Below, one piece after another: positions 31,503 to 64,000 of a DNA stretch of 64,000 nucleotides. Each line of letters opens with the position of its first letter. Positions within the stretch are counted from its first letter, which is position 1. Under the pieces are notes generated by a model. It was given only the letters and a program-made list of their open reading frames with translations, was not told where the DNA came from and ran no database searches. The translations under genes and the position numbers were made by a program. Origin of the DNA: Glaciimonas immobilis (lineage in GTDB: Bacteria > Pseudomonadota > Gammaproteobacteria > Burkholderiales > Burkholderiaceae_D). The DNA lies in assembly GCF_011947285.1 (NCBI RefSeq), contig NZ_JAAOZT010000012.1, forward strand, positions 62,001-126,000, given 5' to 3'.

Positions 31503-32825
31503 TCAAGCCATCAGGTTATCGCGGAAGCTATCGCCTTCATATTCGGTGCGGAACACACCGCGGGCCTGTAAGATCGGCACTACCTGATCAACGAAGTCTT
31601 CTACGCTGTCGGGGTTAGTTGTCGGACTTAGATTAAATCCGTAACAACCGGTTTCGCGCCAGGTACGCTCCATTTCATCGGCTACTTGCTCTGGTGTGCC
31701 AATGACTTGGGGAATAGCTACCGATAAGGCCCACGTGGATGCAGCCTGCCGTAGCGTCACTGCCTTGCCGTCAGCACCGGTAACGGTAGCCGCCATCAAA
31801 CCGCGCGACGCTTGCGTTTCCATTTCTGCCAGCGGACGATCTGGATCAAGTTGACTTAAATCCACGCCGAAGACGCCAGACAAACGCGCCAGAATCGCAT
31901 CGAGCGGAATCCGCTCTGCCAGTTCCTCTGCACGCTGACGCGCTTCAAGTTCTGTACTACGGACGATCGGCTGAAGGCCGAACAATACTTTGCATTCATT
32001 ACCGTTGCCCTTGCCTTGCGCAGCGGCGGCGGCTGAAGCAGCACTCAGTTGGAGCATGCTTTTTTTCATTCCCGCTACGTGCGACTGGATCGCAAAGATG
32101 ACTTCGGCGTGCTGCATGGCGAACTGCAGGCCGCGTCCGGACGAACCAGCCTGGAACAGCAGCGGGCGACCGTAAGGCGATGGCAAAGTTGGGCCGACTG
32201 CCTTGCAATTCAAAAACTTTCCCTGAAAATCGACGACATTGATTTGTTCCGGATCGGCAAATTTCCCCGTTACAGGGTCCTGCAATATTGCGGCATCGGG
32301 CACGCAATCCCACAAGCGATAGCAGATTTCCATAAACTCATCGGCCTGATCGTAGCGTTCGTCATGGCCCAGTGCGCCGAGGCCGTTGGCCTGATGTTCA
32401 GCTGCGCTAAAGCCGGAGACGATGTTCCAGCCGACCCGGCCACGGCTCAAATAATTCAACGTCGAAATACGGCGTGTCGCCAGATAAGGCGTCGTGCCAG
32501 TGGTCGACAAAGTAACCCCGATGCCAAGATGTTTGGTGGCGGCGGCCATAATGGCGACGAGTGGCATCGGATCGTGGTTAGGCCAGGAGGCGCCGTATTC
32601 AACCGATGGCTTCACACTGCTTTTATAGACCGCATGGGTGGCGGGGCTATCTGCAAAAAATACGCCGTCGAAACAACCCCGCTCTAACGTCTGCGCAAGA
32701 TTCTGCCAATAGGAGAAATCTTGCAAACCATTCAGTTGCCCATCCTTTGGATCAGCCCAACTGAGCAGGGTATGTGTGCTGGCGCTGTGAATCAGCATCT
32801 GCATTAAGTGCATTTTTTTAGACAT
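31503..32825 (-). CDS. LLM-class FMN-dependent monooxygenase (NtaA/SnaA/DszA family)
   Basis: A 440-residue bacterial-luciferase-like monooxygenase. The NtaA-type features are visible: an early HSASTHTLLSWADP segment, EYGASWPNHDPMPLVA, TLSTTGTTPYLATRRISTLN and the signature GRVGWNIVSGF. Such enzymes use reduced FMN from a separate reductase to attack C-N, C-S or C-C substrates (nitrilotriacetate, EDTA, dibenzothiophene sulfone and others). The flavin reductase partner lies downstream in the same operon. AAGGA seven bases before the ATG gives a good ribosome site, and a 35-codon small frame precedes it. The substrate is unknown. Confidence 0.9.
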   Translation of the reverse strand: MSKKMHLMQMLIHSASTHTLLSWADPKDGQLNGLQDFSYWQNLAQTLERGCFDGVFFADSPATHAVYKSSVKPSVEYGASWPNHDPMPLVAIMAAATKHLGIGVTLSTTGTTPYLATRRISTLNYLSRGRVGWNIVSGFSAAEHQANGLGALGHDERYDQADEFMEICYRLWDCVPDAAILQDPVTGKFADPEQINVVDFQGKFLNCKAVGPTLPSPYGRPLLFQAGSSGRGLQFAMQHAEVIFAIQSHVAGMKKSMLQLSAASAAAAAQGKGNGNECKVLFGLQPIVRSTELEARQRAEELAERIPLDAILARLSGVFGVDLSQLDPDRPLAEMETQASRGLMAATVTGADGKAVTLRQAASTWALSVAIPQVIGTPEQVADEMERTWRETGCYGFNLSPTTNPDSVEDFVDQVVPILQARGVFRTEYEGDSFRDNLMA

Positions 32826-33028: not shown

Positions 33029-33517
33029 TTAACGAATTAACGATTGCAGATAGTCATCGCCCAAGCCGACTTCACGGCAATATTTGGCATACCGGTCAAG
33101 ACGCAAAAATACATCATCGTAATCGGTGGCGTTACCGGCTTCGTCCAGATACACGAGCGGGCCGTGAACATGAAACAACGCAGTCATCTTGCCCGCTTCG
33201 GGATCAATATAGAGCGTATGAATATGCCCCGGAGGCTCGTACACAAAGCTGCCTGCGCGCGCCACCCAATCGTATTCGCGATAACCCCACGCGCCATCGA
33301 GCGTCCAGCCGGTTACTGGTGACGCGTGACGGTGACGCTGGATGGTTCCCTGACCTTCAGCTTTCAGAATACTGATCCATCCGCCATTGGAAACATCAAA
33401 CAGAATGGGGCGTACCTTGCCGAGTTTACCGAGTGGATACCATTTTTCATCATCAATCATCACGTCCGGAGAAAACATTTCCGGGCGAGTAAAAGGCGAC
33501 TCTGGAATATTAATCAT
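33029..33517 (-). CDS. Small cupin, 2,4'-dihydroxyacetophenone dioxygenase-like
   Basis: A 162-residue single-domain cupin. Likely metal ligands are His62 and His64 (QRHRHASPVTGW), and His98/His100 (PPGHIHTL), with HVHG near residue 118. Pattern and length match the 2,4'-dihydroxyacetophenone dioxygenase (DAD) family, which cleaves a C-C bond next to a carbonyl. Members are also found with unknown substrates. The ATG at 33517 overlaps the stop of the binding-protein gene (TAATG), so the two are coupled. An open frame to 33547 has no better start. Confidence 0.82.
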   Translation of the reverse strand: MINIPESPFTRPEMFSPDVMIDDEKWYPLGKLGKVRPILFDVSNGGWISILKAEGQGTIQRHRHASPVTGWTLDGAWGYREYDWVARAGSFVYEPPGHIHTLYIDPEAGKMTALFHVHGPLVYLDEAGNATDYDDVFLRLDRYAKYCREVGLGDDYLQSLIR

Positions 33518-34746
33518 TAAATGTTCCCTGGTTTGACCAGCGGACAACTGCCAGCCGACATTGGACGCCAGGCCTGCTCAGGGCCGAGCTTACGTTTAAT
33601 CTTGTACAAATCCCACTCACCCTTACTTTCTTCAGGCGACTTAACTTCAAACAAATAGACATCGCTGACTACCCGGCCATCTTCCCGGATACGCGCGTTG
33701 GTCAACACGTCGTCGCTGATCGGCAATTGTTTCATGCGCGCAACCACTGCCCGACCTGACCGCTTTGCTTCGACTGCGCCGACAGCGGCGACCGCTTTCA
33801 GATAATGTGTGACCGACGAATACGCACCGGCCTGTCCCATATTTGGCGGCACGCCTTTGGTTTGCGGCGTAATACGCTTGGAGAAAGCCCGCGATTTGTC
33901 GCTCAAATCCCAATAAAAGGACTCCGTCAACACCAGTCCTTTGGTAACGGGCAAGCCCAGGGCCTTGATGTCCTGCAAATAGATAATTAACGCAGCCATA
34001 CGTTGACCACCTTTGGTCAGACCAAATTCATTGGCTTGTTTGAGGCAGTTAAGCAAGTCGTTACCCGCCAGCGCCAACGCTACGACCTTGGCACCGGAGG
34101 ATTGCGCTTGCAACAAGGCCGACGCAAAATCGGTGGTGCCAACCGGTACCGCCACTTCGCCCACTACCTTGCCACCCTTGGCAATCACGACGGCAGCGGT
34201 ATCGTCACGCAATGCCTTGCCGAATACATAGTCGGCACGGATAAAAAACCAGCTATCTCCATTACCTTTTTCAATCATGCCGTTACCCATACTGGTTGCG
34301 AGCATCGCTGTATCGAAGGTCCAGTGGGTCATGTTCGGGGTGCACTCTTTGCCACTGAGTGAGGCCGAACCGACATTATTGGCGAGCATCACTTTGTCGC
34401 GTTCGCGTACCAGATTATTAACCGCTAGCGCAATGGCCGAATTGTTAAATTCCATTAAGACATCGACGCCCTGATCCAGCCACTGACGTGCAATCGCGGC
34501 ACCAATATCGGGCTTGTTTTGATGGTCAGCAGTAATCAGCTCAACGTTCAGGCCGTGCAGGCCGGACATTTCTGCAATCGCCTGTCGGGCGCACGCAATT
34601 GAACCGGTGCCACCAAGATAGCTGTATGGACCGGACGCATCTTGCAACATCCCGATACGGATCAACGGTTTCGATTGCGCTTTTGCAATCATAGGTGCCA
34701 GTGCAAATGCTGACATGCCGGTCAATATGGTACGACGATTCACCAT
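33517..34746 (-). CDS. ABC importer substrate-binding protein (branched-chain type), operon A
   Basis: A 409-residue periplasmic binding protein. The signal peptide has a twin arginine (MVNRRTILTGMSAFALAPM, cleaved near AKAQS), so Tat export is possible. The type I fold begins IRIGMLQDASGPYSYLGGTG, and the lobes include DVLMEFNNSAIALAV and SWFFIRADYVFGKALRDD. It resembles the LivJ-like proteins that bind aromatic or short carboxylic acids rather than leucine. As the first gene of operon A it defines the imported substrate of the LLM pathway. Confidence 0.9.
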   Translation of the reverse strand: MVNRRTILTGMSAFALAPMIAKAQSKPLIRIGMLQDASGPYSYLGGTGSIACARQAIAEMSGLHGLNVELITADHQNKPDIGAAIARQWLDQGVDVLMEFNNSAIALAVNNLVRERDKVMLANNVGSASLSGKECTPNMTHWTFDTAMLATSMGNGMIEKGNGDSWFFIRADYVFGKALRDDTAAVVIAKGGKVVGEVAVPVGTTDFASALLQAQSSGAKVVALALAGNDLLNCLKQANEFGLTKGGQRMAALIIYLQDIKALGLPVTKGLVLTESFYWDLSDKSRAFSKRITPQTKGVPPNMGQAGAYSSVTHYLKAVAAVGAVEAKRSGRAVVARMKQLPISDDVLTNARIREDGRVVSDVYLFEVKSPEESKGEWDLYKIKRKLGPEQAWRPMSAGSCPLVKPGNI

Positions 34747-35197
34747 CTTCAGTCTCCTTGGTTGATCGCTCTGTTTTGTACCCGGCTCCTATGAATCACC
34801 GGCATCTAACAGAACAATAACTACTTTATAGAATTGTTATATACCGGATGGTAGCTTATTTTTTATAGGCTAGCAAATTTATTGTTGCACCATGCGCTGA
34901 CCGCCTAAAAGTGCTCAGGGAAGCATGCCAGCGCCTTTGAAATGTGCGGTGTAATTTTGTGAAGAAGGATTTAAAAACGTTACTTTCAGACAAAGAACCG
35001 ATGCGTATGGAACTGACTGGCGCTGATGTTTGATTGCTACCCAGGTCCGCAATATGGCAATAACGACGGGGACACGGAACATGACAACAATTAATTGTCG
35101 GGGGAAATAACAACGGCGACTGTAGTTGGAAGGACTTGAGTAAAGTCCCCCCACATACAATCGCCGTGCATTACCTCCAATTTACGTCTCAGAACAT
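34747..35197. other. Intergenic region between operon A and the porin gene
   Basis: 450 bases without a convincing gene. It contains the palindrome TACCGGATGGTA (34842-34853) about 100 bases before the binding-protein start, and a small stem-loop GGACTT/AAGTCC (35132-35148) downstream of the porin gene. The promoter of operon A must lie here, but no -35/-10 pair is clear. Confidence 0.45.
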
Positions 35198-36385
35198 TTA
35201 GAACGAGTGGCGCATACCCAGTGATGCTGCGCGCAAAGTAGAACCGTAAGCGATCTGGCTTCCACCTGTGACTGACGTGATGGTCGATACCAAAGGACCA
35301 TTTGCGTAGGCATTGTTCTTCGTCTGTCCGTAGTTCGCGTACAAGGTCGTGAACTTTGAGAATGGATACTCATAGGTCAAGCCAAGTGTAGTGCCAGCGC
35401 CGTCCGGTGTACCGTTATGCTTATAGTTAATACGGGTGATCGATGGAATGAAAGTTCCGGTACCGACTGGAATCCGTGCACCGACCCAATACGAACGTTC
35501 TTTGCTCCATGTAAAGGCTGAAGGCGAAGCAGTAGAACTGCCGACCGTGGCGACCGGGCTTAAATTGGCAAAGTTACTAGGTCCGTTGAACTGATATGCA
35601 CCAGCAAATACTTTTGCCACAGGAAAAGCGTAAGAGCCTCCGACAATTTGCTCGCTGACCCACTCCGGCTTAGCTGTTGCAATTATGCTATCAGTTGCTT
35701 GACGCAAACGTGTTGCCGACAAACTCAGTGACAGTGGGCCGTTATCGTATGTAACACTTGGATTGATTAATTGTCCGGTGCCACGTGTATTTTCATCACC
35801 GGCAGCAACCATCAGCTTAAACGTGAAGCCGGATGTTTTATATGTTGACAATAATGAGTTATTGACCCGCGAAGTCGACTGAAAAGTGCCGCTTGAAGGC
35901 GTTGCCCCGACGGTCGGATACACCGCATGGTTGGTCGCCGTCGTTGCATTACCCCAGTACAAACCGTATGAAGGATCGATCATCGCAAAAATCACGTCAA
36001 TCGGTGCATACTGGCGACCGGCTGAGAGCGTCCAGTTACTGCCACTGAGACCGACATAAGCCTGACGACCGAACAAGACACCGCCTTGAGTGCTAGCGCC
36101 AGTGTCGACCGCAATGCCAGCCTCCAACACGAAATTGGCGTTTAAACCACCGCCGAGATCTTCAATGCCGCGAAAGCCAATCCGACTAGCCGGACCAACG
36201 CCGGAATCTTCACGGAAGGTGTGCGACGATACTGCTTTAGTCGGACCGCCAGGGGTAGTCGTGCCACCGCTTGTACTCACGTTGGTGAGAGCGACATCCA
36301 GATTGCCATAAATGGTGACATTGGAGTCGGCATGTGCTACGCCAAAAGGGGCCAGTATGGCGATTGCAGCGATGAGTTTTTTCAT
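35198..36385 (-). CDS. Gram-negative general porin
   Basis: A 395-residue outer-membrane porin of the beta-proteobacterial trimeric type: signal peptide MKKLIAAIAILAPFGVAHA, first strand SNVTIYGNLDVALTNVST, SRIGFRGIEDLGGGLNANFVLEAGI, FGRQAYVGLSG, and a C-terminus LGMRHSF with the terminal Phe required for barrel assembly. It would admit small hydrophilic substrates for the adjacent importers. It stands between operons A and B with its own promoter region, which contains a perfect 18-base palindrome. Confidence 0.93.
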   Translation of the reverse strand: MKKLIAAIAILAPFGVAHADSNVTIYGNLDVALTNVSTSGGTTTPGGPTKAVSSHTFREDSGVGPASRIGFRGIEDLGGGLNANFVLEAGIAVDTGASTQGGVLFGRQAYVGLSGSNWTLSAGRQYAPIDVIFAMIDPSYGLYWGNATTATNHAVYPTVGATPSSGTFQSTSRVNNSLLSTYKTSGFTFKLMVAAGDENTRGTGQLINPSVTYDNGPLSLSLSATRLRQATDSIIATAKPEWVSEQIVGGSYAFPVAKVFAGAYQFNGPSNFANLSPVATVGSSTASPSAFTWSKERSYWVGARIPVGTGTFIPSITRINYKHNGTPDGAGTTLGLTYEYPFSKFTTLYANYGQTKNNAYANGPLVSTITSVTGGSQIAYGSTLRAASLGMRHSF

Positions 36386-36925
36386 TTGATGTCTCCGGTG
36401 TTAATGTCGTTTTTTATAATTAAGATAGTTACTTCTTGAACATCTATCATTATTTTATGATTTCATACTCAAGACGGTGTCGCTTGCGTTTACTAGCTAA
36501 AGCAGGTAATGCGGATCAAAGTTGGCTGGATGTGTAGTTTTTTAAGCACACTGTCAAGCCAATAGTTTCCTGCATAAAACTTCTTAGAATATTAATATGC
36601 CAGTAAGATAGCATCTTATACTGATCAGTATAAAAATAGGTGTAATGTGCGTCAATATTTATTAATCGGCTTGCTGATCGCGGAACTTATGTGTCGATGA
36701 GTGAAATTATTTTCAGGCAAAGAGATGATAAAAAATGAACGACCATAAGTCTCTGGCCAGACTCAATAGCGCAACCGGCTAGTGGCACTACACCATCAAG
36801 CAAGCCCACACTGCCATTGTTGCAGTCTGGGACTTACCAGTCCTCCTCCAGCTTCGACTTTAGAACCACGTTTTATAAACGCAGTTTTATCCACCCGCTT
36901 CCAGACGCGGTTTTATAGCCCCGTT
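36386..36925. other. Intergenic region upstream of the porin gene
   Basis: 540 AT-rich bases without a gene. It holds a perfect 18-base palindrome (36616-36633) and a small stem-loop AGTCT/AGACT (36748-36763) that could end operon B transcripts weakly. Otherwise nothing recognised. Confidence 0.5.
36616..36633. promoter_or_regulatory. Perfect 18-base palindrome upstream of the porin
   Basis: TTATACTGATCAGTATAA is exactly self-complementary. It lies about 230 bases upstream of the porin start. Length and symmetry fit an operator of a dimeric repressor such as TetR or GntR type; the protein is unknown. Confidence 0.55.
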
Positions 36926-53072: not shown

Positions 53073-54023
53073 TTAGTCTGCGAAAGAAAAGCCCATCGCC
53101 CGCGTGTAGTAGTAAATGCCGCCGTCCTGAATAATCAGGAACATGGCGCGTTTATTGCCTTCGTTGTGATGAGAATGCACGGCAACGCCAGGGGTGATGG
53201 TAGTAGCCCATTGCGACCATTCTTTGCGCTTGCCATCAACGATTGAGTAACAGCCTTCGCCTTGAATAATCAATGCCATTGCCATCGCATTGTGGCGATG
53301 TGGACGCTGCGCTTCACCCGCAGGTAAGGAGTTCATCGCCACGGTCAATGTTGGCAAAACGTTGCGAATAGCTTCTTGCGAAGTCGAAGAGAAAATCAAC
53401 GCTGATCCGGGAATATCCTTGCCGCGTCCTACCGCATAGAGCAAATCGATCTGGCGCGTAATTTCATCTGCAGGGTAATGCACTACACAGGTCGGTGCAT
53501 TGCCTTGGGCTGGCGCGCGGAGATTTTCGAAAGCTAATTGCGGCTCATTAGTGACGATCCACAGCACAGCATCCGCCTCGGTAGTGGCCTTATATACATG
53601 CACACCGCCGCCTGGCAGTATGAACACGTCGCCAGTACTCCATTCAATATTTTCAGCTTCGCAAGTGGTGCTACCTATGCCACTGATGACATAGACGATA
53701 ATGCCACTGGCGACAAATTCAGTGCTCAGCGTTTCGCCGGCTTTAATCTTTGCGTAGCGGGCCAGCGATAGCGGCGTGGTGGCAGGCGTCGCGCTTTCAA
53801 GCTGCGCCGATACATCGCAAGGAATCAGGCAGGTCGGGGTATCAGGATGTAATGCTTTGAGCGGTTCATTAACAAAGCTTTGATCTGGTACGGCGGGTAG
53901 CTTCACGTCAAACGCGTTCCCAGTGTTGTAATAACGCGCAGCGGCTTGCGCTGGGGTAGTCGGCGCTAAAGCAAGCTGGGCTGGCAAATCTGCAATCGTC
54001 CGTGGACGGTTCGTATCTGGCAA
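53073..54023 (-). CDS. Two-domain cupin protein, gentisate dioxygenase-like
   Basis: A 316-residue bicupin. The C-terminal cupin has RPHRHNAMAMALIIQGEG and VAVHSHHNEG, giving His ligands near residues 243, 245 and 285, and the YSIVDGKR loop seen in gentisate 1,2-dioxygenase. The N-terminal cupin (SGIIVYVISGIGSTTCEAEN, PGGGVHVY) lacks the His-x-His pair. In gentisate dioxygenase the iron sits in the N-terminal cupin, so the arrangement here is reversed. The start is a TTG at 54023, chosen because AAGGAG lies six to eight bases upstream. It is the first gene in the operon C direction. Confidence 0.82.
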   Translation of the reverse strand: MPDTNRPRTIADLPAQLALAPTTPAQAAARYYNTGNAFDVKLPAVPDQSFVNEPLKALHPDTPTCLIPCDVSAQLESATPATTPLSLARYAKIKAGETLSTEFVASGIIVYVISGIGSTTCEAENIEWSTGDVFILPGGGVHVYKATTEADAVLWIVTNEPQLAFENLRAPAQGNAPTCVVHYPADEITRQIDLLYAVGRGKDIPGSALIFSSTSQEAIRNVLPTLTVAMNSLPAGEAQRPHRHNAMAMALIIQGEGCYSIVDGKRKEWSQWATTITPGVAVHSHHNEGNKRAMFLIIQDGGIYYYTRAMGFSFAD

Positions 54024-54217
54024 AATAATCTCCTTAATATCCGGTGTCGTCTAGCCTTCATTAGTAACAGGCCTGGAACGATCTTATCTGTCCTACGTTA
54101 CGCCGCTCAACTGGCAGGGTCAAACGAGAAATTCTTATCGATACCAATCAGTACGCGGTAGGTAAAGCGTTCTCCGCCCTTCTTAAACATGCGTACGCTT
54201 ATGTGCACTCTTTCAAC

Positions 54218-55111
54218 TTAATCCGATGTTGGCGGCAACCTGCAAATGTCGGTCACGATGGCCGCGAAATCGGCGATGGCCGGATCGAGGCTATCGACAC
54301 GGGTAGCGACAAAAAAAGTAATTGACGGGATCGAAGGACTGGCATTCAACGCACACAGCGTACCGGCTTCAAGATCGTCTTTAACTAACTCATGCGGCAT
54401 CATGCACACGCATACACCACCACGCGCAACGTAAAGCATGGTGGACATACTGTTACAAAAACTGACTGACCCCGGGACTACCGCAGCTTCTGCGAACCAG
54501 CTTTGCATTTGTGTAAATAGGCGCGCTTCGCGATTCAACGAAATGATAGGTAAGGCTGCAATATCGCGGGGTGTTGCTATCGCTAACTGCGCGCTGAGAA
54601 CGGGAGTGCCAACCCACACCACTTTGAGCGCACCAATCGACACCGCGTTAATTTCCCCATCGTGTATCGGGCCGCCGACTACCGCGACATCTATCGCGCC
54701 GCGGCTGAGCTTGGATAAGAGACTGGCATTCAGGTCGATATCAAACTCCACCGCTAATCCGGGATAACGCTGCTTCAATGTGTTGATAATCGCGACCAAT
54801 GAGCGCGCTGCAATTACTTCCCCCAGTCCGATCTTGACTACGCCGGTGGTGATCTCGGGTTTCCCTGCGACCAAACGCAACTGCGACGCGTCAATGACGA
54901 CCTTTTCCGCATGCACTAACAGTTCGCGACCTTTTAGCGTCAATTGCACCTGGCGTCCAATGCGATCGAACAAGACCACATCCAGTTCCATTTCTAGCTC
55001 ACGAATCCGTGAAGAAACGCTAGCCTGCGAGGTGTATAGACGATCAGCGGCCGCACTAAAAGTACCGAGTCGTGAAATCCAGCAAAAGGTTTCAAGTTGC
55101 TGAATGTTCAT
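54218..55111 (-). CDS. LysR family transcriptional regulator
   Basis: A 297-residue LysR protein: winged helix QQLETFCWISRLGTFSAAADRL with TSQASVSSRIRELEMEL at the N-terminus and an effector domain from about residue 90. It is transcribed in the same direction as the preceding cupin-led gene run, 194 bases from it, and is the obvious local regulator of operon C. No strong inverted repeat stands out in the gap. Confidence 0.92.
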   Translation of the reverse strand: MNIQQLETFCWISRLGTFSAAADRLYTSQASVSSRIRELEMELDVVLFDRIGRQVQLTLKGRELLVHAEKVVIDASQLRLVAGKPEITTGVVKIGLGEVIAARSLVAIINTLKQRYPGLAVEFDIDLNASLLSKLSRGAIDVAVVGGPIHDGEINAVSIGALKVVWVGTPVLSAQLAIATPRDIAALPIISLNREARLFTQMQSWFAEAAVVPGSVSFCNSMSTMLYVARGGVCVCMMPHELVKDDLEAGTLCALNASPSIPSITFFVATRVDSLDPAIADFAAIVTDICRLPPTSD

Positions 55112-55138: not shown

Positions 55139-55984
55139 TTAAAGAGCATGCGGCGGCGGGATGGCTTGGCCATACATTCTGATGGACTGAGAACTTTTAA
55201 AGAGTAACGTCGGCGTCATGCCGAATACCTGGCGTACCGAATGACTAAAATGGGTGGCGTCTGGATAACCGGTATTGAGCGCCAGATAGATCAAATTATT
55301 TGAGTCCAACAAGCGATACAGCAAACTGCGGCCACGCTTCCAGGAACGAAAACTCCGAAACGATATTCCGACCGTCGCGCGGAACAAGTGTAAAAATCTC
55401 GACACCGAAAGCCCCGAATCCGCGGCACAGGAAATAGCTGAAGCCTGACCGCAGGGATTTTCTTTGATACGCTCGACAAGCATGGCAATACGCGACTCGA
55501 AAGGCGGCGGACGAACCAGCAGCTGACCGAAAAAAAACATATCGAAGTCTTCCGTCTTTGGATCAATAATGTCGCCAAGACGGTTAATTTTTGCGTAGGC
55601 GTCAACTATTCGCTGCACTAGTTCGGGATCAGCAACCTTACCGGAGCGGGATTTCAGATACGCGGGAAGATATTCCAACGCAACCGTCTCCGGCTCGATA
55701 TGCATGACCGCAACCAAACGGTTATCGCATTCAATCCGGTGTGGCGTATAAGGTTGCACCACTGCAAAATCTGTAGTGATCCAATCGCCATTATCGATGC
55801 TAATTCGAATCGGCTCCGACAACGATACATACATCAAAATACTACCCATGACGCGGGTAGTGCGCTGTCCAATCAGACCGGAGTAAAAAACCCGGTCAGA
55901 ATTGATCCAGATATGGCGTTGGCGCGGTGGACGAGTCGGACGAGTTGGCGTCGGCGTTAGTATCAATTCAGAATTATTGAACAT
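55139..55984 (-). CDS. AraC family transcriptional regulator
   Basis: A 281-residue AraC-type regulator. An N-terminal sensor-like region contains a run of PTRPTRPPRQRHIW, and a C-terminal double HTH is visible in SAISCAADSGLSVSRFLHLFRATVG and LIYLALNTGYPDATHFSHSVRQVFGMTP. It lies 27 bases upstream of the LysR gene on the same strand, so the two regulators are probably cotranscribed, an uncommon pairing. Ligand unknown. Confidence 0.9.
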   Translation of the reverse strand: MFNNSELILTPTPTRPTRPPRQRHIWINSDRVFYSGLIGQRTTRVMGSILMYVSLSEPIRISIDNGDWITTDFAVVQPYTPHRIECDNRLVAVMHIEPETVALEYLPAYLKSRSGKVADPELVQRIVDAYAKINRLGDIIDPKTEDFDMFFFGQLLVRPPPFESRIAMLVERIKENPCGQASAISCAADSGLSVSRFLHLFRATVGISFRSFRSWKRGRSLLYRLLDSNNLIYLALNTGYPDATHFSHSVRQVFGMTPTLLFKSSQSIRMYGQAIPPPHAL

Positions 55985-56085: not shown

Positions 56086-57612
56086 TTACCCTGCCGCTAA
56101 CAATCTTAAGGCCTGCCGTCGCCGCAACGCCGCACGCCCGGCAAAGAATAATTGCCCTAATACGACCAACGAGCATATTCCAATAAATGAAGCACTAATC
56201 GGACGATCTATAAATACCATCATGTCTCCACGGGAGAGCAAAAGAGCGCGTCGGAAATTTTCTTCAATCATGGGGCCGAGCACATATCCAAGCAATATCG
56301 GCGAGACCGGAAAATCGAGTGCCACGAAGAGTGCACCGACTAGTCCGAATACCAATACTTCACCGACACCGAACAGGCTGTTGTTGGTGCTGTACACGCC
56401 GACCGCTATAAAAAATAGCGCCGCAGGAAATAAATAACGATACGGGACCTGCAATAATTTTACCCAGACGCCGATCAGTGGAATATTCAGCACCAGAAGC
56501 AATACATTACCAACCCAAAAGCTGGCAATCAAACCCCAAAAAAGGTCGGCATGTTCGGTAATTAACTGCGGTCCAGGTTGAATACCTTGAATTAATAACG
56601 CACCCAAAATCAGCGCCATTACCGCGTCGCCCGGTATTCCCAAACTCATGGTGGGAATAAAATCAACTTGTGTTTTAGAATGCGATGCTGCTTCGGGGCT
56701 AGCCACACCTTCGATCGCGCCATGACCGAAGCGCTCCGGTGTCTTGGAAATTTTACGTTCAAACGCGTAAGCGATAAATGTCGTAATAGTAGGACCGGTG
56801 CCTGGCATCGCGCCGAACAATGTACCAATTAACGTGCCCCGTACCATGGGAAAGAAAGCTTGCTTAAGCTCCGCTTTGCTCGGACGCATGTCTCGGAAGC
56901 CCAACTTGACGCCGCTACCGACGATTTCCATTCGGTTGACGCTACGCAGAAATTCTGTGACCCCAAACAGGCCTAGCGCCAATGCTACCAATTCGACTTT
57001 GTCGGATAGTTCTAACAACCCCATTGTGAAGCGTGGGGTTCCAGTATTAACATCGGTGCCCACCAGCCCGATCAAGAGTCCGACAATCGTCATCGCCACA
57101 CCTTTCAGCGGCGACCCTTTAGACATCGTTCCGCCGCATAACAAGCCCAGCAGCATAATCGAAAATATTTCTGTGGGGCCGAACTTGAATGCCACACTGA
57201 CCAATAATGGCGATGCGAAAATCATCACTACAATTCCAAATGATGCGGCAAAAAATGACGCGATCATTGTGATGCCGAGTGCGGTACCGCCCTTACCCTG
57301 GCGGGTCAACGGGTAGCCATCGAGACAGGTCACTGCGTGAGGCGGATGGCAAGGCAGATTTAACAGAATTGCGCCGATGGCTCCGCCATATTGCGATCCG
57401 TAAAAAATACCGGCCAACATCAAAATTGCGGGGATCGGGTGCAGAGAATAAGTAATCGGGAGCAGCATCGAGATCGCCGACAACGCACCCATTCCAGGCA
57501 AAACCCCGATTAAATTACCGATCAAAACGCCAACAAACGACCACATCAGGTTGTGGGGCTGCAAAGCAACACCAAAGCCTGACCAAAGATCCATTAAAGA
57601 TTGTCCGATCAT
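56086..57612 (-). CDS. tctA: Tripartite tricarboxylate transporter large permease TctA
   Basis: A 508-residue membrane protein with about twelve hydrophobic segments and the TctA hallmarks GVLPGMGALSAISMLLPITYSLHPIPAILMLAGIFYGSQYGG and GTLFGAMPGTGPTITTFIAYAFE (two glycine-rich repeats), with a late SLGIPGDAVMALILGALLIQG. It forms the proton- or sodium-coupled pore for a carboxylate. It follows tctB by three bases. No TctC binding protein is encoded in the window. Confidence 0.93.
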   Translation of the reverse strand: MIGQSLMDLWSGFGVALQPHNLMWSFVGVLIGNLIGVLPGMGALSAISMLLPITYSLHPIPAILMLAGIFYGSQYGGAIGAILLNLPCHPPHAVTCLDGYPLTRQGKGGTALGITMIASFFAASFGIVVMIFASPLLVSVAFKFGPTEIFSIMLLGLLCGGTMSKGSPLKGVAMTIVGLLIGLVGTDVNTGTPRFTMGLLELSDKVELVALALGLFGVTEFLRSVNRMEIVGSGVKLGFRDMRPSKAELKQAFFPMVRGTLIGTLFGAMPGTGPTITTFIAYAFERKISKTPERFGHGAIEGVASPEAASHSKTQVDFIPTMSLGIPGDAVMALILGALLIQGIQPGPQLITEHADLFWGLIASFWVGNVLLLVLNIPLIGVWVKLLQVPYRYLFPAALFFIAVGVYSTNNSLFGVGEVLVFGLVGALFVALDFPVSPILLGYVLGPMIEENFRRALLLSRGDMMVFIDRPISASFIGICSLVVLGQLFFAGRAALRRRQALRLLAAG

Positions 57613-57615
57613 CGC

Positions 57616-58080
57616 TTAACCCCACTGGAATAAAGGAAACTGCAGTTTCAGGGCCCACCAAAATACGATGATGCAGATCACTCCCATGCCTAGCGAGAGG
57701 AGCAATGCACTTTTCAGTGAATTATTACGGTCGCCCATTGCCGAAATGAAAACGATGGCAATGGTGGCGGGTAGCAAGCCCCCGTACACTCCCAATACCA
57801 GGAAAGCCAGGATAGATAAGACAATGCAAATCCAGCCTCGCCATTCCGGAGCAATGTATTTTTCCTCAGCTTCAGGCGTTGCAGCTTTGGCACCGATAGC
57901 GATCATTGCGCCAACAAGTACCAATAAGACACCAAGGGTAACCGGGAAAAATCCTGGACCCATGCGATTCAGACTACCGATATTGTAAGTTTTGCCCTGG
58001 ACCGCCGCGCCCAGGCCTAACAACATCATCAAGCCACCACCGTAATAATCTTTATTATATTTATTGATGAAATTGCGCAT
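57616..58080 (-). CDS. tctB: Tripartite tricarboxylate transporter small permease TctB
   Basis: A 154-residue, four-helix membrane protein with an N-terminal YNKDYYGGGLMMLLGLGAAVQG and NRMGPGFFPVTLGVLLVLVG, matching TctB. The ATG at 58080 is preferred over that at 58086 because AGGAGG is then six bases upstream rather than adjacent. Two TACT-N4-AGTA palindromes lie 165-196 bases upstream. The gene partners tctA, but the periplasmic TctC must come from elsewhere. Confidence 0.9.
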   Translation of the reverse strand: MRNFINKYNKDYYGGGLMMLLGLGAAVQGKTYNIGSLNRMGPGFFPVTLGVLLVLVGAMIAIGAKAATPEAEEKYIAPEWRGWICIVLSILAFLVLGVYGGLLPATIAIVFISAMGDRNNSLKSALLLSLGMGVICIIVFWWALKLQFPLFQWG

Positions 58081-58086
58081 CGTCAT

Positions 58087-58549
58087 CCTCCTGTTCCTGC
58101 ATGAATTATTTTTATAATTTATTGCATATTAAAAACTTACTTCTGCTAGCAGACCTTGTTTTTTGGCAAGTGTGTCCCACAATACTTCAATAATCATGCC
58201 AGCAGATACCACGAGTTGTATTTTTTACTAGCGTACCTTTATCGTACTATTGAGTATTATAATTTACTTTTGAGTAAAATTAAGTTTGCGGCGATAAATA
58301 GAGTGATTTTTTCATTGGAAGAACGCGGAGAAATGCAAGCGCCAGATACCCGTGACATGACTACCTGGCAAAATACCGGTAGTGAACACGTCGCATTACC
58401 AGCACCGGTGCATTACCCTCACGCTCCAAATATGGCTAAAAAATCAAAACGTATCTCAGGTGAAACAAGTGGGATAAAGCACAATCCGTCGCATTACATT
58501 CTGTACTAGCAGACCGCTTTCACCGTCGCCATGGTTACCCCATATCCAA
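58087..58549. other. Promoter region of tctBA
   Basis: 463 AT-rich bases with two operator-like palindromes (58245-58276). A short open frame on the plus strand (58333-58509) has no recognisable family and I do not call it a gene. Confidence 0.5.
58245..58276. promoter_or_regulatory. Paired TACT-N4-AGTA palindromes upstream of tctBA
   Basis: TACTATTGAGTA (58245-58256) and TACTTTTGAGTA (58265-58276) are centred exactly 20 bases apart; the second extends to TTTACT...AGTAAA. The same motif pairs occur before the crotonase and CoA-transferase genes, so a common regulator (probably the TetR protein at 62410) is likely. Confidence 0.65.
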
Positions 58550-59713
58550 TTACGCTACGGATCTCTTTACTTTAGGAAGCAACGCATTGCCGATAATTTG
58601 TTTCATTACCTCCGCGGTACCGCCACCGATGCGGCACATGCGTGCATCGGCAAATGCGCGTGCAATCGGGTATTCCCACATATAGCCCCAACCGCCAAAC
58701 AATTGAAGACACTGGTCCATCACGCGCCCCTGTAATTCAGTGGTTACCAGCTTGGCTGCAGCGGCATCGGTCGGGTCGAGTGCCCCTTTGAGATGCAGCT
58801 CAAGGCAGCGGTCAACGAACACGCGCTGCGCCACCAGTTCTGCGTGCAGTTCCGCTAACTTGAAACGCGTATTCTGAAAATCACCCAACGTATGCCCAAA
58901 CATCGTGCGCTCGGTGACGTACTCAATGGTCCATTGCACCGCTGCCTCCGAGCTCGCCACCGCACGGATCGCCTGCACCAGACGCTCCTGCGATAACTGG
59001 GTCATCAGTTGAACGAAACCACCGCCTTCTGCGCCCAGTAAGTTGCTCACTGGTACACGCACATCGGCGAAAAAAAGTTCCGACGTATCTTGCGCTTTGC
59101 AGCCAAGTTTTTCGAGCTTGCGTCCGCGCGTAAAACCGGCGCGATCAGTTTCGACCAAGATAAGGCTGACGCCCTTACCGCGTGCCAGAGGATCAGTCTT
59201 GCATGCTAATACCAACAAATCGGCGCTATGACCGTTAGTAATAAATACCTTCTGTCCATTAATGACATACTCGCTACCATCGCGTATTGCTTGCGTACGC
59301 ATCGCTTGCACATCGCTACCGCCTGAAGGTTCGCTCATGCCGAGTGCAGCGACCACTTCGCCGGTCGCCATTTTTGGCAACCAATATTTCTTTTGTTCTT
59401 CGGTCCCGAAGTCGACCAGATACGGGGCGACAATATCGGAATGTAAATAGAACGTTGGGCCGGTGGCACCTACTCGCGCCATTTCTTCGATCAAGATCGC
59501 GCTATGCAAAAAATCACCGCCCATGCCGCCATACTCTTCCGGCACATTGCAGCAAAGCAATCCTAGCTCCCCTGCTTTTAACCATAGCGAACGGGGAACC
59601 ATGCCTTCTTTTTCCCACTCTGCATGGAACGGCACCACATGCTCGGCGATAAAGCGCCGCACGGTATCGCGAAAGAGTTCGTAGTCGGCGCTGAAAATAG
59701 TACGTGGAATCAT
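58550..59713 (-). CDS. Acyl-CoA dehydrogenase
   Basis: A 387-residue flavoprotein. ALGMSEPSGGSDVQAMRT and KVFITNGHSADLLVLA mark the FAD/substrate region. The usual C-terminal YEG catalytic motif is replaced by CRIGGGTAE, while Glu243 in QLSQERLVQA occupies the position used as base by long-chain and isovaleryl-CoA dehydrogenases. It introduces a 2,3 double bond into an acyl-CoA. I start at the ATG at 59713; the open frame continues to a TTG at 59743. It probably works with the crotonase upstream on the same strand. Confidence 0.92.
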   Translation of the reverse strand: MIPRTIFSADYELFRDTVRRFIAEHVVPFHAEWEKEGMVPRSLWLKAGELGLLCCNVPEEYGGMGGDFLHSAILIEEMARVGATGPTFYLHSDIVAPYLVDFGTEEQKKYWLPKMATGEVVAALGMSEPSGGSDVQAMRTQAIRDGSEYVINGQKVFITNGHSADLLVLACKTDPLARGKGVSLILVETDRAGFTRGRKLEKLGCKAQDTSELFFADVRVPVSNLLGAEGGGFVQLMTQLSQERLVQAIRAVASSEAAVQWTIEYVTERTMFGHTLGDFQNTRFKLAELHAELVAQRVFVDRCLELHLKGALDPTDAAAAKLVTTELQGRVMDQCLQLFGGWGYMWEYPIARAFADARMCRIGGGTAEVMKQIIGNALLPKVKRSVA

Positions 59714-59916
59714 TGGGTGCCCAAGGTTAGAGGTTGGCAACAAGTAGAACGTCGCAATGTGCAGTCAGAACGGCTGCACTTTTAGTTATCTGGACTTATG
59801 GAAAACCGCCCCAGCGAGGCGTGCTTTTCTGGCCATCTCGCGGTCCGATCAATGTGAACTGGTGCGTATGCCCCAGTTTGCCCAACAATCTGTGGCTGCG
59901 AGTTAGCGCACAGCTA

Positions 59917-60681
59917 TCAGGTACCGGTCCACTTAGGTGCGCGTTTTTCGGCGAACGCCAATGCACCTTCCCGGGCGTCGTTAGAACGTATTACCGGACC
60001 GGTGATGGCTTCCTGAATCGCAAACATTTCGGCAATCGGCCAGTCTCGTTGCTCAATGATTACACGCTTACTGGCGGCCACCGAGAGCGGCGCATTGGCG
60101 AGAATAAGGCGGGCTAGCCGCTTCGCTTCAGCGAGTGCCCCCCCTGGCTCTACCAGTGCATTGATTAATCCGTAACGTTCGAGCCGCTCGGCCGATACCA
60201 TTTCGCCGGTCAGGGCAAGTTCCATCGCGATGCGTTGCGGAATCAGACGCGGCAACCGCAACAGGCCACCCGCCGCCGCAGCAAGACCGCGTTTGGCTTC
60301 TGGCAAACCGAATAATGCTGTACGAGAGGCAACTAGCAGATCGCATGCTAAGGCCGACTCAAATCCGCCAGCCAATGCGTAGCCTTCGACCGCAGCAATC
60401 AATGGCTTGCGTGGCGGCGTTAGTGCGATACCCAAGATTCCGCGCCCTTCTACTCGCGTGACCTCCCCCCGCGAGAAAGCCTTTAGGTCCATGCCAGAAC
60501 AAAAATTACCACCCGCCCCCGTGAGGATGGCCAAGTGCAGGTCGCTTCGGCTCTCCATTTCGTCGATCGCTTCGCATACGCCGTAGGACACCGCCCGGTT
60601 CACAGCATTCCTTGCCTGTGGTCGATTAATGGTAATAATTACCAGGCCGTCTTCGTGCGCGACCAAGACTTCGTCCGTCAT
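59917..60681 (-). CDS. Enoyl-CoA hydratase/isomerase family protein (crotonase fold)
   Basis: A 254-residue crotonase-fold enzyme. The oxyanion-hole segments are GAGGNFCSGMDLKAF (about residues 55-69) and EGYALAGGFESALACDLLVAS, and a Glu in GLPEAKRGL fits the catalytic position. It hydrates or isomerises an enoyl-CoA. The start has AAGGA nine bases upstream, and two TAC-N6-GTA palindromes lie 62-93 bases upstream of it. It is followed after 203 bases by the acyl-CoA dehydrogenase gene, suggesting a small beta-oxidation-like module. Confidence 0.92.
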   Translation of the reverse strand: MTDEVLVAHEDGLVIITINRPQARNAVNRAVSYGVCEAIDEMESRSDLHLAILTGAGGNFCSGMDLKAFSRGEVTRVEGRGILGIALTPPRKPLIAAVEGYALAGGFESALACDLLVASRTALFGLPEAKRGLAAAAGGLLRLPRLIPQRIAMELALTGEMVSAERLERYGLINALVEPGGALAEAKRLARLILANAPLSVAASKRVIIEQRDWPIAEMFAIQEAITGPVIRSNDAREGALAFAEKRAPKWTGT

Positions 60682-60742
60682 TGCTTTCTATCCTTATCGT
60701 TACTTTAGCATTCGTATTTGATGCGGGAGGCCAGCGCGACTA

Positions 60743-60774
60743 TACTAATTGGTATTATAAAGTACGGTCAAGTA
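60743..60774. promoter_or_regulatory. Paired palindromes upstream of the crotonase gene
   Basis: TACTAATTGGTA (60743-60754) and TACGGTCAAGTA (60763-60774), centres exactly 20 bases apart, the same spacing as the tctB pair. Confidence 0.6.
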
Positions 60775-60963
60775 AAAATAGTACCAGCGATCCTGAAAGA
60801 ATTAAAAAACTTAAGAGGGGACAAGAAATTATGTCGTCAAATCCTGCGCTTAAAATTGGGCGTCCGGACATAATTAAATGGGCATATTCATTTATGCTGA
60901 GAGCAATAAACTGTCTTCGAAGATAGACTATTGCTCCATAAACTAGCATCACAGATATGTGGC

Positions 60964-60996
60964 TACCCTTTAGTATTTGTTTTATACTATTAAGTA
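60964..60996. promoter_or_regulatory. Paired palindromes upstream of the CoA-transferase gene
   Basis: TACCCTTTAGTA (60964-60975) and TACTATTAAGTA (60985-60996), centres 21 bases apart; the second is embedded in TATACT-ATTA-AGTATA. Confidence 0.6.
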
Positions 60997-61031: not shown

Positions 61032-62159
61032 ATGGCAGCTCTTCCATTGGTCGGCATTCGTATCCTTAGTTTAGCCGAGCAATATCCGGGCCCCTTTGCC
61101 ACCATGTTGCTAGCCGATCTTGGTGCGGATGTTATTTTGGTTGAAAGGCCCGATGGCGGCGATCCTTCCCGTCGCTTCGCAGGATTATTTACGTCTCTTA
61201 ACCGCAACAAACGCTCAGTGGCGCTTGATCTTAAATCAGAAGCTGGCCGTGCACAGTTTTTGGAACTGGTGGACTCAGCCGATGTGGTTATTGAGGGCTA
61301 TCGCCCCGGCGTCATGGCACGTTTAAAGCTGGACGCTGACCTATTGCGTGCGCGCAAGCCAGGCTTGATTTACATGTCAATCTCGTCGTTTGGGCAAACT
61401 GGCCCGATGGCTGCGGTGGCCGGACACGATCTGAGCATTCAGGCGTCTGCCGGGATGATCAAGGTACCGCTCGGTCAGGAAGCCAACGCCAACCTGCCGG
61501 TACTGCCTTTGGCAGATATCTCATCTGCGATGTTTGCTGCACTGGGCGTCGTCACGGCACTATTTGGACGTACCCGCTCCGGACACGGTAGCCAGATCGA
61601 TGTCTCCATGTTCGACTCGCTGGTCTGCTGGATGACACCATTTTTGGTGCCCGCAATGAATGCGCTGGAGGTAAGACCGCTGCCGCCAGAAGATCCCGGT
61701 TATGGATTATTCGCCACCGCCGATGGACGTCAAATCACGCTGAGTATCGCTGGCGAAGATCACATGTGGCGGGCGCTTTGCGACCTGCTGGGATTAAAGC
61801 AATATAGCGCGTTGACTGAGCAGCAACGCAATCATCGCGCCAGGGAAATCGATCCATATTTACGCGCTGCAATTGCCAGCTGTCACTTCGATTGGCTATG
61901 TCAACATCTGGAAACCGAGCGCATTGCGTTTGGCCCCGTCTGCGACGTTGATCAAGTAGTGGAAGATGCGCAGGTTAAAGCGCGTAATATGGTGGTGGAG
62001 TTTGATGGAAAAAGTAAGCGTGAGCGCTTCATACGGCAACCGTTAATCTTTGACGGAAATATAGGGACCATCAGACATTCTGCCCCTGACCTCGGCGAGC
62101 ATGGTCCGGCGATATTTGAGGCGTTGTCTGCCGAAGAGTTGCCAGACAACGTGCGGTAA
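61032..62159 (+). CDS. CaiB/BaiF family (class III) CoA-transferase
   Basis: A 375-residue class III CoA-transferase: GIRILSLAEQYPGPFATMLLADLGADVILVERP, LNRNKRSVALDLK, and the catalytic Asp133 in GHDLSIQASAG. AAAGGA precedes the ATG by seven to eight bases. It is the only plus-strand gene in the right half of the window, divergent from the crotonase/dehydrogenase pair and sharing its operator motif. It would load CoA onto an imported carboxylate. Confidence 0.93.
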   Translation: MAALPLVGIRILSLAEQYPGPFATMLLADLGADVILVERPDGGDPSRRFAGLFTSLNRNKRSVALDLKSEAGRAQFLELVDSADVVIEGYRPGVMARLKLDADLLRARKPGLIYMSISSFGQTGPMAAVAGHDLSIQASAGMIKVPLGQEANANLPVLPLADISSAMFAALGVVTALFGRTRSGHGSQIDVSMFDSLVCWMTPFLVPAMNALEVRPLPPEDPGYGLFATADGRQITLSIAGEDHMWRALCDLLGLKQYSALTEQQRNHRAREIDPYLRAAIASCHFDWLCQHLETERIAFGPVCDVDQVVEDAQVKARNMVVEFDGKSKRERFIRQPLIFDGNIGTIRHSAPDLGEHGPAIFEALSAEELPDNVR

Positions 62160-62409: not shown

Positions 62410-63216
62410 TTAGGACGCAGGCGCACGAGGTGTACGAGGTGCACCTTTGCGTCGCGTTGGCTTAGCCTGAATCATTGCCAGTACCAGTTTGGATACCTGT
62501 TCAGCAGTTTCCTCTGGCTTCAGCCGCCCATGGGGCCGGTACCAGACACATGACCAGCTCACAATACCGCCAACGGCCAAAGATGCAATTCTGACATCGC
62601 TCACGGTAAATTCACCAGTGGCAACACCGTCATCAAGCAAGGCGCACAGTTTTCGATCAAATTCGCGCCGCATCTGTTCGATGACATCACTGTCTTTCTT
62701 TGCCAAATGCTTTTGTTCACGGGTGTAAATTGCGATGGCTTCCTGATTTTCTAAGACGGCAATAGTGAAGTCGTGCACCATTGAACGGACTTTTTCGGTC
62801 GGTGACTGCTCTGATGCGACTACTTGATCAAGTACCTCGAGTGATGCACGAATACCGCGTGAGCAAATTTCTCCCAGCAATTCGTTCTTAGAGGTGAAAT
62901 GAGAGTAAATAAACGGTTTAGTGACGTTGATTTTTTCGGCTACTGCCTCTAGCGTCGTGTTATTGAAGCCGTTGTGATAGAACAACTCAACCGCCACTGC
63001 GATGATACGCTCACGTTTGAGTCTGGAGACCGCGTCGCGGATGTCCTCAACGTCATTTTCTGTGGCACTTTGCGCTTTACGAACAGAGGCGAGCTTGGGA
63101 GAAGGTACCCGCAGGACAGCAGGAGCAGCCTTTCCCGATGCAGCCTTCGCTACGGAAGTTGCACGCTTTTTCACGCTGACGGGTTCTTTGCTCGTAGGAT
63201 CAGGTAATTTTTTCAT
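62410..63216 (-). CDS. TetR family transcriptional regulator
   Basis: About 268 residues. A long basic, Ala/Lys-rich N-terminal tail (about 60 residues) precedes the HTH KRERIIAVAVELFYHNGFNN followed by TTLEAVAEKINVTKPFIYSHFTSKNELL. The C-terminal ligand domain resembles the TetR_C class seen with fatty-acid regulators (IVSWSCVWYRPHGRLKPEETAEQVSKLVL). Two starts (63216 and 63234) are possible and neither has a clear ribosome site. Position next to CoA-transferase, crotonase, acyl-CoA dehydrogenase and TctAB makes it the likely reader of the TACT-N4-AGTA sites. Confidence 0.9.
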   Translation of the reverse strand: MKKLPDPTSKEPVSVKKRATSVAKAASGKAAPAVLRVPSPKLASVRKAQSATENDVEDIRDAVSRLKRERIIAVAVELFYHNGFNNTTLEAVAEKINVTKPFIYSHFTSKNELLGEICSRGIRASLEVLDQVVASEQSPTEKVRSMVHDFTIAVLENQEAIAIYTREQKHLAKKDSDVIEQMRREFDRKLCALLDDGVATGEFTVSDVRIASLAVGGIVSWSCVWYRPHGRLKPEETAEQVSKLVLAMIQAKPTRRKGAPRTPRAPAS

Positions 63217-63234
63217 GTGTCGTATTTTATACAT

Positions 63235-63633
63235 TTTTCAGCATGTTCACCACAGGGTGACGGATACTTGGTGTTGGATATTGCTCTGACTGCTTATTAT
63301 CGGATGATATTGGGTGGTGGCGCTTGGTTTGATTGGTTCGTTGTTCGATGGTTTTAACGGTTGGTGCTCTGTGGATGCTGGTCGGGGGTGGCCCGACAGC
63401 CAGTTACTTTTTTTTGCCTCGCCAAAAATAAGTAACCAAAAAAAAGGCGACCGCAGAGGCGTCGCCCGCCGTTGGCGGGTCCCCGATTATTTCGACTATC
63501 AGTCGGGTCGAAATACCAACTCGCTTCGCTCAAACATGGTTTCCGACAATTCCCGACTGACAGCCGAAATAACCGGCAACGCCTATGACGGGGTAGGTCA
63601 ACGGCCAGTTCAACTTCAACTTCACCCCCCCAA
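63235..63633. other. Intergenic region with the longest copy of the dispersed repeat
   Basis: About 400 bases without a gene. Most of it (63371-63619) is the dispersed repeat. Short open frames across it are repeat-derived. Confidence 0.55.
63371..63619 (+). repeat. Dispersed hairpin repeat, longest copy
   Basis: Contains two perfect hairpins, GTCGGG-GGTGG-CCCGAC (63381-63397) and CCCGCC-GTT-GGCGGG (63465-63479), an A/T-run pair (TACTTTTTTTTGCC and AGTAACCAAAAAAAAGGC), and the AACCGGCAACGCCTATGACGGG module (63571-). Parts recur at 12451-12487 and 50551-50597. I know such elements as common intergenic repeats of Burkholderiales; their role is unknown. Confidence 0.7.
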
Positions 63634-64000
63634 TTAATCCGTGATCGGCTCGAAAAGTAGTTCCGGCGCTTCGGCCTCTAACAAGAATCGCCCTTGCACC
63701 GACTGACCGATTGTTGGGGTTACGCCGCGCCATAATCCTAGCGCGCGTACTCCCGCATCAAGATCGACCGTGACCAGGGTATAGGGTAAATCTGCTGCAA
63801 AGGCAGGATGAAATGCATGATGCGCTACGGTCCAGCTATGTACGCGGCCTGCACCACTGGCTGGTTTCCAGACTACGGTATCGGCATAACAGGCATCGCA
63901 TAGCAGACGAGGATAGTGACGTGGCTTATCGCAGACGGCACAATGTTGTACTATCAGGCGGCCTTCAGCGGCAGCTTCCCAGTATGGTCGGGATAATTCG
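63634..64000 (-). CDS. Zn-ribbon/OB-fold (DUF35) protein, C-terminal part; cut by window edge
   Basis: The last 121 codons of a minus-strand gene running off the right edge. RPYWEAAAEGRLIVQHCAVC, then RLLCDAC, gives a Cys-x2-Cys...Cys-x2-Cys zinc ribbon, followed by an OB-fold segment (GRVHSWTVAHHAFHPAFAAD, LPYTLVTVDLDAG). These proteins usually partner a thiolase- or crotonase-like enzyme in CoA-thioester chemistry. The partner, often a thiolase-family gene, is probably just beyond the edge. Confidence 0.85.
   Translation of the reverse strand, partial: ELSRPYWEAAAEGRLIVQHCAVCDKPRHYPRLLCDACYADTVVWKPASGAGRVHSWTVAHHAFHPAFAADLPYTLVTVDLDAGVRALGLWRGVTPTIGQSVQGRFLLEAEAPELLFEPITD

Follow-up and report, generated by a model that had tools for sequence, protein, structure and literature searches.

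Which protein would read the paired palindromes that precede the catabolic genes near one end of a 64,000-nucleotide stretch of the Glaciimonas immobilis genome, and how far would its control extend? Few kinds of bacterial repressor are as numerous as the TetR-type regulators, for most of which, to our knowledge, neither ligand nor operator is known. The stretch, referred to below as the window, corresponds to C4:62001-126000 of a 4.91-Mb genome in 31 contigs, and from about 54 to 64 kb it carries genes for LysR, AraC, TctA, TctB, acyl-CoA (coenzyme A) dehydrogenase, crotonase, family III CoA-transferase and TetR proteins (Table 1). The initial annotation had pointed to six TAC-N6-GTA dyads, two at each of three promoters, and to the TetR protein as the nearest regulator. 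Our analysis strongly supports the assignment of the dyads to this protein, which very probably acts as the local repressor of a catabolic regulon through these paired sites; binding, repression and cooperativity, as well as an acyl-CoA ligand, are what we infer below.

All six dyads, which begin at 58245, 58265, 60743, 60763, 60964 and 60985 and fit TACN-N4-RGTA, lie where the initial annotation had placed them, and the distances between their centres (20, 20 and 21 bp) are those it had given. The single TAC-N6-GTA motif occurs 19 times in the window, compared with 6.8 (standard deviation 2.5, maximum 14) in 100 dinucleotide shuffles. The assertion that its frequency is far above chance was correct; the expectation of one site per 4 kb was too frequent, and since the background rate is about one per 9 kb, the excess is only strengthened. 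An exhaustive scan of the window, in which triplet, inner gap and distance were varied to give 12,800 combinations, had TAC/6/20 as its most extreme case. A genome-wide search, which had been proposed as a check, confined the perfect pair to this cluster: with a gap of 6-11 bases it occurs three times in the genome, each time at one of these three promoters (a backwards control pattern occurs once). Two further perfect pairs, at distances of 24 and 25 on contigs C12 and C29, look like chance.

When one mismatch was allowed, pairs of TACY-N4-RGTA were found at nine places in the genome, six of which fall within the 41 kb of C4:96822-137616 (binomial p ~3e-11). The three additional pairs, each with one mismatch, precede the gene of a Liv-type periplasmic binding protein (34822), tctC (C4:134202) and a pyrroloquinoline quinone (PQQ) dehydrogenase gene (C4:137585), the latter two just outside the window. 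The tctC promoter heads a gene row of tctC and CoA ligase, and the row behind the pair at 34822 includes a luciferase-like monooxygenase and an ABC transporter. The regulon is probably larger than three promoters, and its target genes could fit one pathway. A position matrix was built from 21 perfect dyads at four promoters of three species. The six genome pairs score 24.7-36.9 with this matrix, the lowest being the Liv-type pair (24.7), whereas 60 simulated sequences reach 12.8 at most. Of the six, the Liv and PQQ pairs are outside the training set, and the other four are wholly or partly within it.

Conservation was assessed among 60 genomes, including that of the window. Orthologues of the TetR protein are present in two genomes of the same genus, G002 (76% identity) and G004 (74%), and there the order of the cluster genes compared, from tctC to AraC, is that of the window genome. 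As the orthologous-promoter comparison suggested in the initial annotation required, the pairs proved to be kept in both sister species, at the tctB, crotonase, CoA-transferase and tctC promoters. In ungapped comparison with the window genome, the operators have an identity of 0.75-0.91 and their 40-bp flanks one of 0.17-0.46, except to the right of the tctC operator (0.85-0.90). One half-site of the tctC operator reads TTC in all three species. With 85-90% identity across the three species, the 40 bp downstream of this operator (C4:134162-134201; L003:16162-16201) differ from the flanks at the tctB, crotonase and CoA-transferase operators.

Strict pairs and the TetR gene occur together: such pairs are found in all three genomes with a TetR orthologue (the window genome included) versus 5 of the 57 genomes without one, and the same-genus genomes G001 and G003 have neither. 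Near a Liv-type transporter gene row, each of G002 and G004 has a further TetR gene, which encodes a paralogue of 68% identity whose core is likewise V-T-K-P-F-I-Y-S-H-F; no second close copy is listed in the window genome. Before this gene row, two perfect dyads stand 41 bp apart (L038:9666-9718 and L039:11497-11549) with an imperfect dyad between them, so that three dyads follow one another at intervals of 20 and 21 bp. Both the co-occurrence and the paralogue loci support the earlier suggestion that the TetR protein is the regulator of the pairs.

Outside the genus, 222 relatives were found when genomes were scanned with the TetR alignment, and we retained the best 80 (40-71% identity; loci L041-L120). 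They include Comamonadaceae, Roseomonas, Sphingomonadales, Rhizobiales and others. Since the scan was made in part with the peptide [NSG]VTKPFIY, the Lys-Pro residues of these proteins are present by construction. The nearer relatives carry several of the pathway genes, and at many loci from L081 onwards TetR is accompanied by few or no other query genes. The genus-trained matrix identified 56 pairs in 35 of the 80 loci, compared with a mean of 1.4 and a maximum of 5 for 30 permuted matrices. About two-thirds of these pairs (37) lie within 300 bp upstream of a query-gene homologue, versus 7-11% of random positions: 13 precede a CoA-transferase, 10 an FMO-like protein (our label "BVMO"; Pfam names the query FMO-like), 8 a CoA ligase, 3 a TetR gene and 3 other genes. 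The pairs near tetR in L093, L096 and L110 are ambiguous, and the one in L093 lies inside a tblastn match and may be coding. Among the 224 half-sites of the 56 pairs, 141 read TAC and 35 TTC, which gives T-x-C with a free middle base. The distance between dyads in the 44 pairs scoring at least 18 (distances 12-44) is 20 bp in 19 and 21 bp in 9, with at most 5 at any other distance. TAC pairs with up to one mismatch number 32 in the 80 loci, as opposed to 0-9 for eleven triplets of the same composition. TAC/6/20 also ranks first of 12,800 in the exhaustive scan of L041-L120 and of L041-L050; the Poisson background of that scan ignores codon structure, and we therefore relied on the permuted matrices instead.

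The protein itself has the modules of its family. Its helix-turn-helix domain matches TetR_N (PF00440) with 55.8 bits (cut-off 24), and its C-terminal domain matches TetR_C_24 with 105.5 bits. The longest open reading frame (ORF) begins at 63234, and the relatives favour a start at 63216. The AlphaFold model has a pLDDT (predicted local distance difference test) of 88, and each of the 50 Foldseek matches listed, most of them named as TetR-family proteins, has a probability of 1.00. The fold neighbours include PfmR, KstR2, AibR and FadR, which are linked to fatty acids or acyl-CoA. In its recognition helix the protein has Thr-Lys-Pro-x-x-Tyr where DarR has Lys44-Gly45; because of this replacement, which is shared by its homologues, we did not file it as a DarR. 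The core of the DarR operator, TAC-N6-GTA, is present in the window system, with the variants TACY/RGTA and TTC/GAA. According to the DarR report (PMC10636190), that operator is ATACT-N4-AGTAT; in each TxC, Lys44 bonds to the G paired with the C, and Gly45 contacts the methyl group of the T. The authors expect that no other residue is tolerated at position 45 of DarR, and the G45V variant lost binding. As Thr-Lys-Pro-x-x-Tyr occupies the corresponding place, the Lys of V-T-K-P-F-I-Y would, by homology with DarR, read the G that pairs with the C of T-x-C, whereas the T methyl group would be packed by the following Pro, as it is by the Gly of DarR.

Each presumed target promoter carries two, sometimes three, dyads with centres 20-21 bp apart, a distance that would bring two dimers to about the same face of the DNA, adjacent and not overlapping. 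Together, the two dimers would cover about 33 bp, each on its own dyad and two turns from the other. The crotonase dyads overlap a promoter-like sequence on the minus strand, TTGACC-N18-TAGTAT, which is kept in G002 and G004. The dyads lie over its -35-like and -10-like elements, so that their occupation would block RNA polymerase. A CoA thioester, formed by the encoded CoA ligase or CoA-transferase, may then release the dimers, and transport, activation and breakdown would be switched on together. This manner of relief is suggested by the target genes together with the four fold neighbours named above.

TetR proteins with a [TS]-K-P-x-x-Y helix may form a wider class with a common code, in which Lys-Pro reads T-x-C, a dimer reads TxC-N6-GxA, and at least two dimers bind in steps of 20-21 bp; on this proposal our judgement is evenly poised. 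A tandem pair (TWC allowed in one dyad) is present in 47 of 399 genomes of the order, and the window genome has it at the most places, six. Close orthologues of the TetR protein are rare: at E 1e-25 they occur in 4 of the 399 genomes, including that of the window, and the other three have 36-37% identity. We picked by hand 20 regions (23 pair places) from about 60 distinct places outside the window genome (57 + 3), taking mostly perfect TAC pairs and leaving out several near-identical orthologues. A TetR-like ORF was found in 14 of these regions and not in the other six; in 13 of the 14 this ORF directly adjoins or overlaps the pair, and those 13 proteins have Lys-Pro. Since the first profile had been built from Lys-Pro homologues, the search was repeated with a generic TetR profile, which gave the same 14 regions and the same 13 with Lys-Pro. 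As background, Lys-Pro was found at 3 of 59 TetR loci in three genomes, two of which had been chosen for carrying pairs, and in 2 of 26 homologues elsewhere. For one of these genomes (G284) loci were obtained for only 30 of 43 TetR matches, and L201, one of the 60 loci, was left out because it yielded no domain. Pairs with up to one mismatch lie within 1.5 kb of 3 of the 5 TetR genes with Lys-Pro versus none of the 80 without (p ~1e-4), the window TetR being counted as a miss because its nearest pair is just beyond the flank. These results suggest a wider TetR class, but their weight is lessened by the way in which places and genomes were selected. In another genome of the order, four TAC-N6-GTA dyads stand in a row (G088:C1:225943-226005; L163:1944-2006), in a 4-kb stretch without a TetR-like ORF.

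Several observations weigh against the TetR protein as a repressor acting through paired dyads. TetR proteins often autoregulate, and no pair was found before tetR itself in the window genome or before its orthologues in G002 and G004. The distance from the tctB operator to the start codon is 159-190 bp. Outside the 41-kb region, the genome holds three one-mismatch pairs (C23:336273, C26:45422 and C31:220329), adjoining or within ORFs without an evident link; these are probably due to chance. At up to two mismatches the excess disappears, both in the genome (20 places, 10 per spacing, versus 13 and 19 for the controls) and in the 80 homologue loci (95 TAC pairs versus 4-154 for the eleven triplets). 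There is no pair at the threshold in 45 of these 80 loci, and in L041-L079 the exhaustive triplet scan ranks TAC/6/20 fourth, behind GC-rich, codon-like combinations. Promoter-like matches do not exceed the shuffles in number (4 versus 3.1). Finally, the remark of the DarR authors on position 45 argues against a simple exchange of Gly for Pro.

If the TetR protein is the regulator, it could still bind one dyad at a time, or as overlapping dimers in the manner of DarR and QacR, so that the second dyad would be independent and no phased cooperation would take place. The dimer-of-dimers structures known for TetR proteins do use overlapping dyads, as reported for DarR (PMC10636190) and FadRSa (PMC6449355), and at the crotonase promoter of G004 a third dyad lies midway between the two, at an offset of 10 bp. 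We nevertheless consider such binding unlikely, in view of the preference for 20-21 bp outside the genus and of the same preference in 240 genomes of the order, where 23 of 50 perfect pairs fall at 2 of the 18 distances examined (20 or 21 bp among 15-32; p ~6e-10). With the window genome and three near-repeats removed, 18 of 43 remain at these distances (p ~3e-7).

The dyads might instead belong to the AraC or the LysR protein, whose genes are both neighbours of the cluster. AraC relatives are indeed present in the G002 and G004 clusters, and G004 has a 97% LysR match (over the first 71 residues, beyond which it is cut off by the end of the stretch). At the paralogue loci, in contrast, the same dyads lie beside TetR with no AraC relative found, and the sole LysR match, in L038, has 28% identity and lies at a distance of about 9 kb. 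The 80 distant loci were fetched by TetR and contain it by construction; in them AraC was not found at E 1e-15 and LysR once, at 31% identity, whereas the motif is present in 35. It is a TetR-like ORF that abuts the pair in 13 of the 20 hand-picked regions elsewhere in the order. LysR boxes follow T-N11-A, usually with an odd spacer, as in ATAC-N7-GTAT, whereas the spacer is 6 in all six dyads of the window. Control of the sites by either protein is thus very improbable.

Still less credible is an activator of the AnfA type, acting with sigma-54. The consensus of AnfA in Rhodobacter capsulatus is likewise TAC-N6-GTA, with two sites in the anfH promoter (PMC7294313); AnfA activates Fe-nitrogenase genes and is not the same kind of protein as the window TetR. 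The regulators identified beside the cluster are TetR, AraC and LysR, none of them a sigma-54 activator, although no dedicated scan for sigma-54 promoters or AnfA-like genes was made. That the pairs merely reflect chance in AT-rich promoters, as the missing genome-wide excess at two mismatches might suggest, is next to inconceivable against the clustering of perfect and one-mismatch pairs, their conservation across diverged flanks and their excess over permuted matrices in the loci outside the genus (56 pairs versus 1.4).

The features of the window are collected in Table 1. Past tetR, the cluster continues with a 133-residue ORF, three thiolase-like proteins, a ChsH2-type OB-fold protein, a flavin monooxygenase, a CoA ligase and TctC, followed by the PQQ dehydrogenase gene and then by a Liv-type ABC gene row. 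The intergenic stretch of about 200 bp between tetR and the 133-residue ORF, which ends at 63634, appears repeat-like by eye (63390-63600); no such stretch was seen between the orthologous genes of G002 and G004. The perfect dyad of the weak candidate (36619-36630) begins 234 bp upstream of a porin gene (Porin_4; ORF 35198-36385, minus strand). A lone TACCAATCAGTA with a low matrix score occurs at 54142-54153, between a cupin gene (53073-54023) and the LysR gene. A PADLOC search gave no result.

Table 1. Genes and predicted operators of the TetR-associated cluster, in window coordinates
Feature	Position	Strand	Remarks
Luciferase-like monooxygenase (Bac_luciferase)	31503..32825	-	downstream of the Liv-type binding protein gene
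Liv-type periplasmic binding protein (Peripla_BP_6)	33517..34746	-	presumed target
Predicted tandem operator, one mismatch	34822..34853		76-107 bp 5' of the Liv-type periplasmic binding protein gene
Weak operator candidate	36598..36630		perfect dyad TACTGATCAGTA at 36619, poor partner at 36598; matrix score 15.1
LysR regulator	54218..55111		
AraC regulator	55139..55984		
TctA, tripartite transporter	56086..57612	-	presumed target
TctB, tripartite transporter	57616..58086	-	presumed target
Predicted tandem operator before tctBA	58245..58276		dyads 58245-58256 and 58265-58276, centres 20 bp apart; kept in G002 and G004
Acyl-CoA dehydrogenase	58550..59743	-	3' of the crotonase gene on the same strand; co-transcription presumed
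Crotonase/enoyl-CoA hydratase	59917..60681	-	presumed target; NF006100 above cut-off
Predicted tandem operator before crotonase/acyl-CoA dehydrogenase genes	60743..60774		dyads at 60743 and 60763; kept in G002 and G004
Predicted tandem operator before family III CoA-transferase gene	60964..60996		centres 21 bp apart; kept in G002 and G004
Family III CoA-transferase (CoA_transf_3)	61032..62159	+	presumed target
TetR-family regulator	62410..63216	-	TetR_N and TetR_C_24; recognition helix VTKPFIYSHF

The present results tie an operator architecture of two separate dyads to one regulator family of Alpha- and Betaproteobacteria and, tentatively, to a Lys-Pro signature common to more distant TetR subfamilies. 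If this is true, two residues of an unstudied TetR protein could be enough to read its operator and much of its regulon, and the regulon described here would reveal the transporters and oxygenases of a CoA-dependent breakdown pathway that is otherwise unassigned. A literature search with the site strings returned passages on AnfA, LysX of Desulfovibrio (PMC545781) and CzcR3 (PMC8469834), none of which concerns this TetR protein; PheR (PMC13273656), an IclR-type case, was not relevant. Helix strings, other dyad strings and combinations of TetR with BVMO, AibR or tandem operator gave nothing on this system in the open-licence literature.

Among the characterized fold neighbours, AibR, KstR2, PfmR and FadR share about 20-27% identity and the two-domain build with the window TetR; the recognition helices of AibR and PfmR read TKA and SKA, respectively, versus TKP. 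The best PDB match by both sequence and fold, 3dcf, an uncharacterised TetR protein of Thermobifida fusca (32% identity), has TKP as well. A precedent for a local regulon is FadRSa of Sulfolobus acidocaldarius, which is described (PMC6449355) as a TetR repressor that controls a 30-kb fatty-acid cluster from only four genomic sites and is released by acyl-CoA. The likeness is one of description: unlike the window TetR, FadRSa is archaeal and binds a 16-bp semi-palindrome, on which a second dimer overlaps one side.

The closest parallel in the sites is DarR of Mycobacterium and Rhodococcus, whose operator contains the same dyad and whose chains are among the sequence and fold matches of the window TetR. 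DarR residues Thr43, Lys44, Tyr48, Ser53 and Lys54 have counterparts in VTKPFIYSHFTSK of the window protein, in an alignment made by eye with its register set by Thr-Lys; position 45 is Gly in DarR and Pro here. The dimers of DarR overlap on one 20-bp site (PMC10636190), whereas the window system has two separate dyads 20-21 bp apart, and the ligands of DarR are cyclic adenine nucleotides (c-di-AMP or cAMP), whereas for the window TetR an acyl-CoA appears likelier. The TAC-N6-GTA dyad itself is already known from DarR; as far as our searches of the open-licence literature show, the separate tandem dyads combined with a Lys-Pro helix are the new part.

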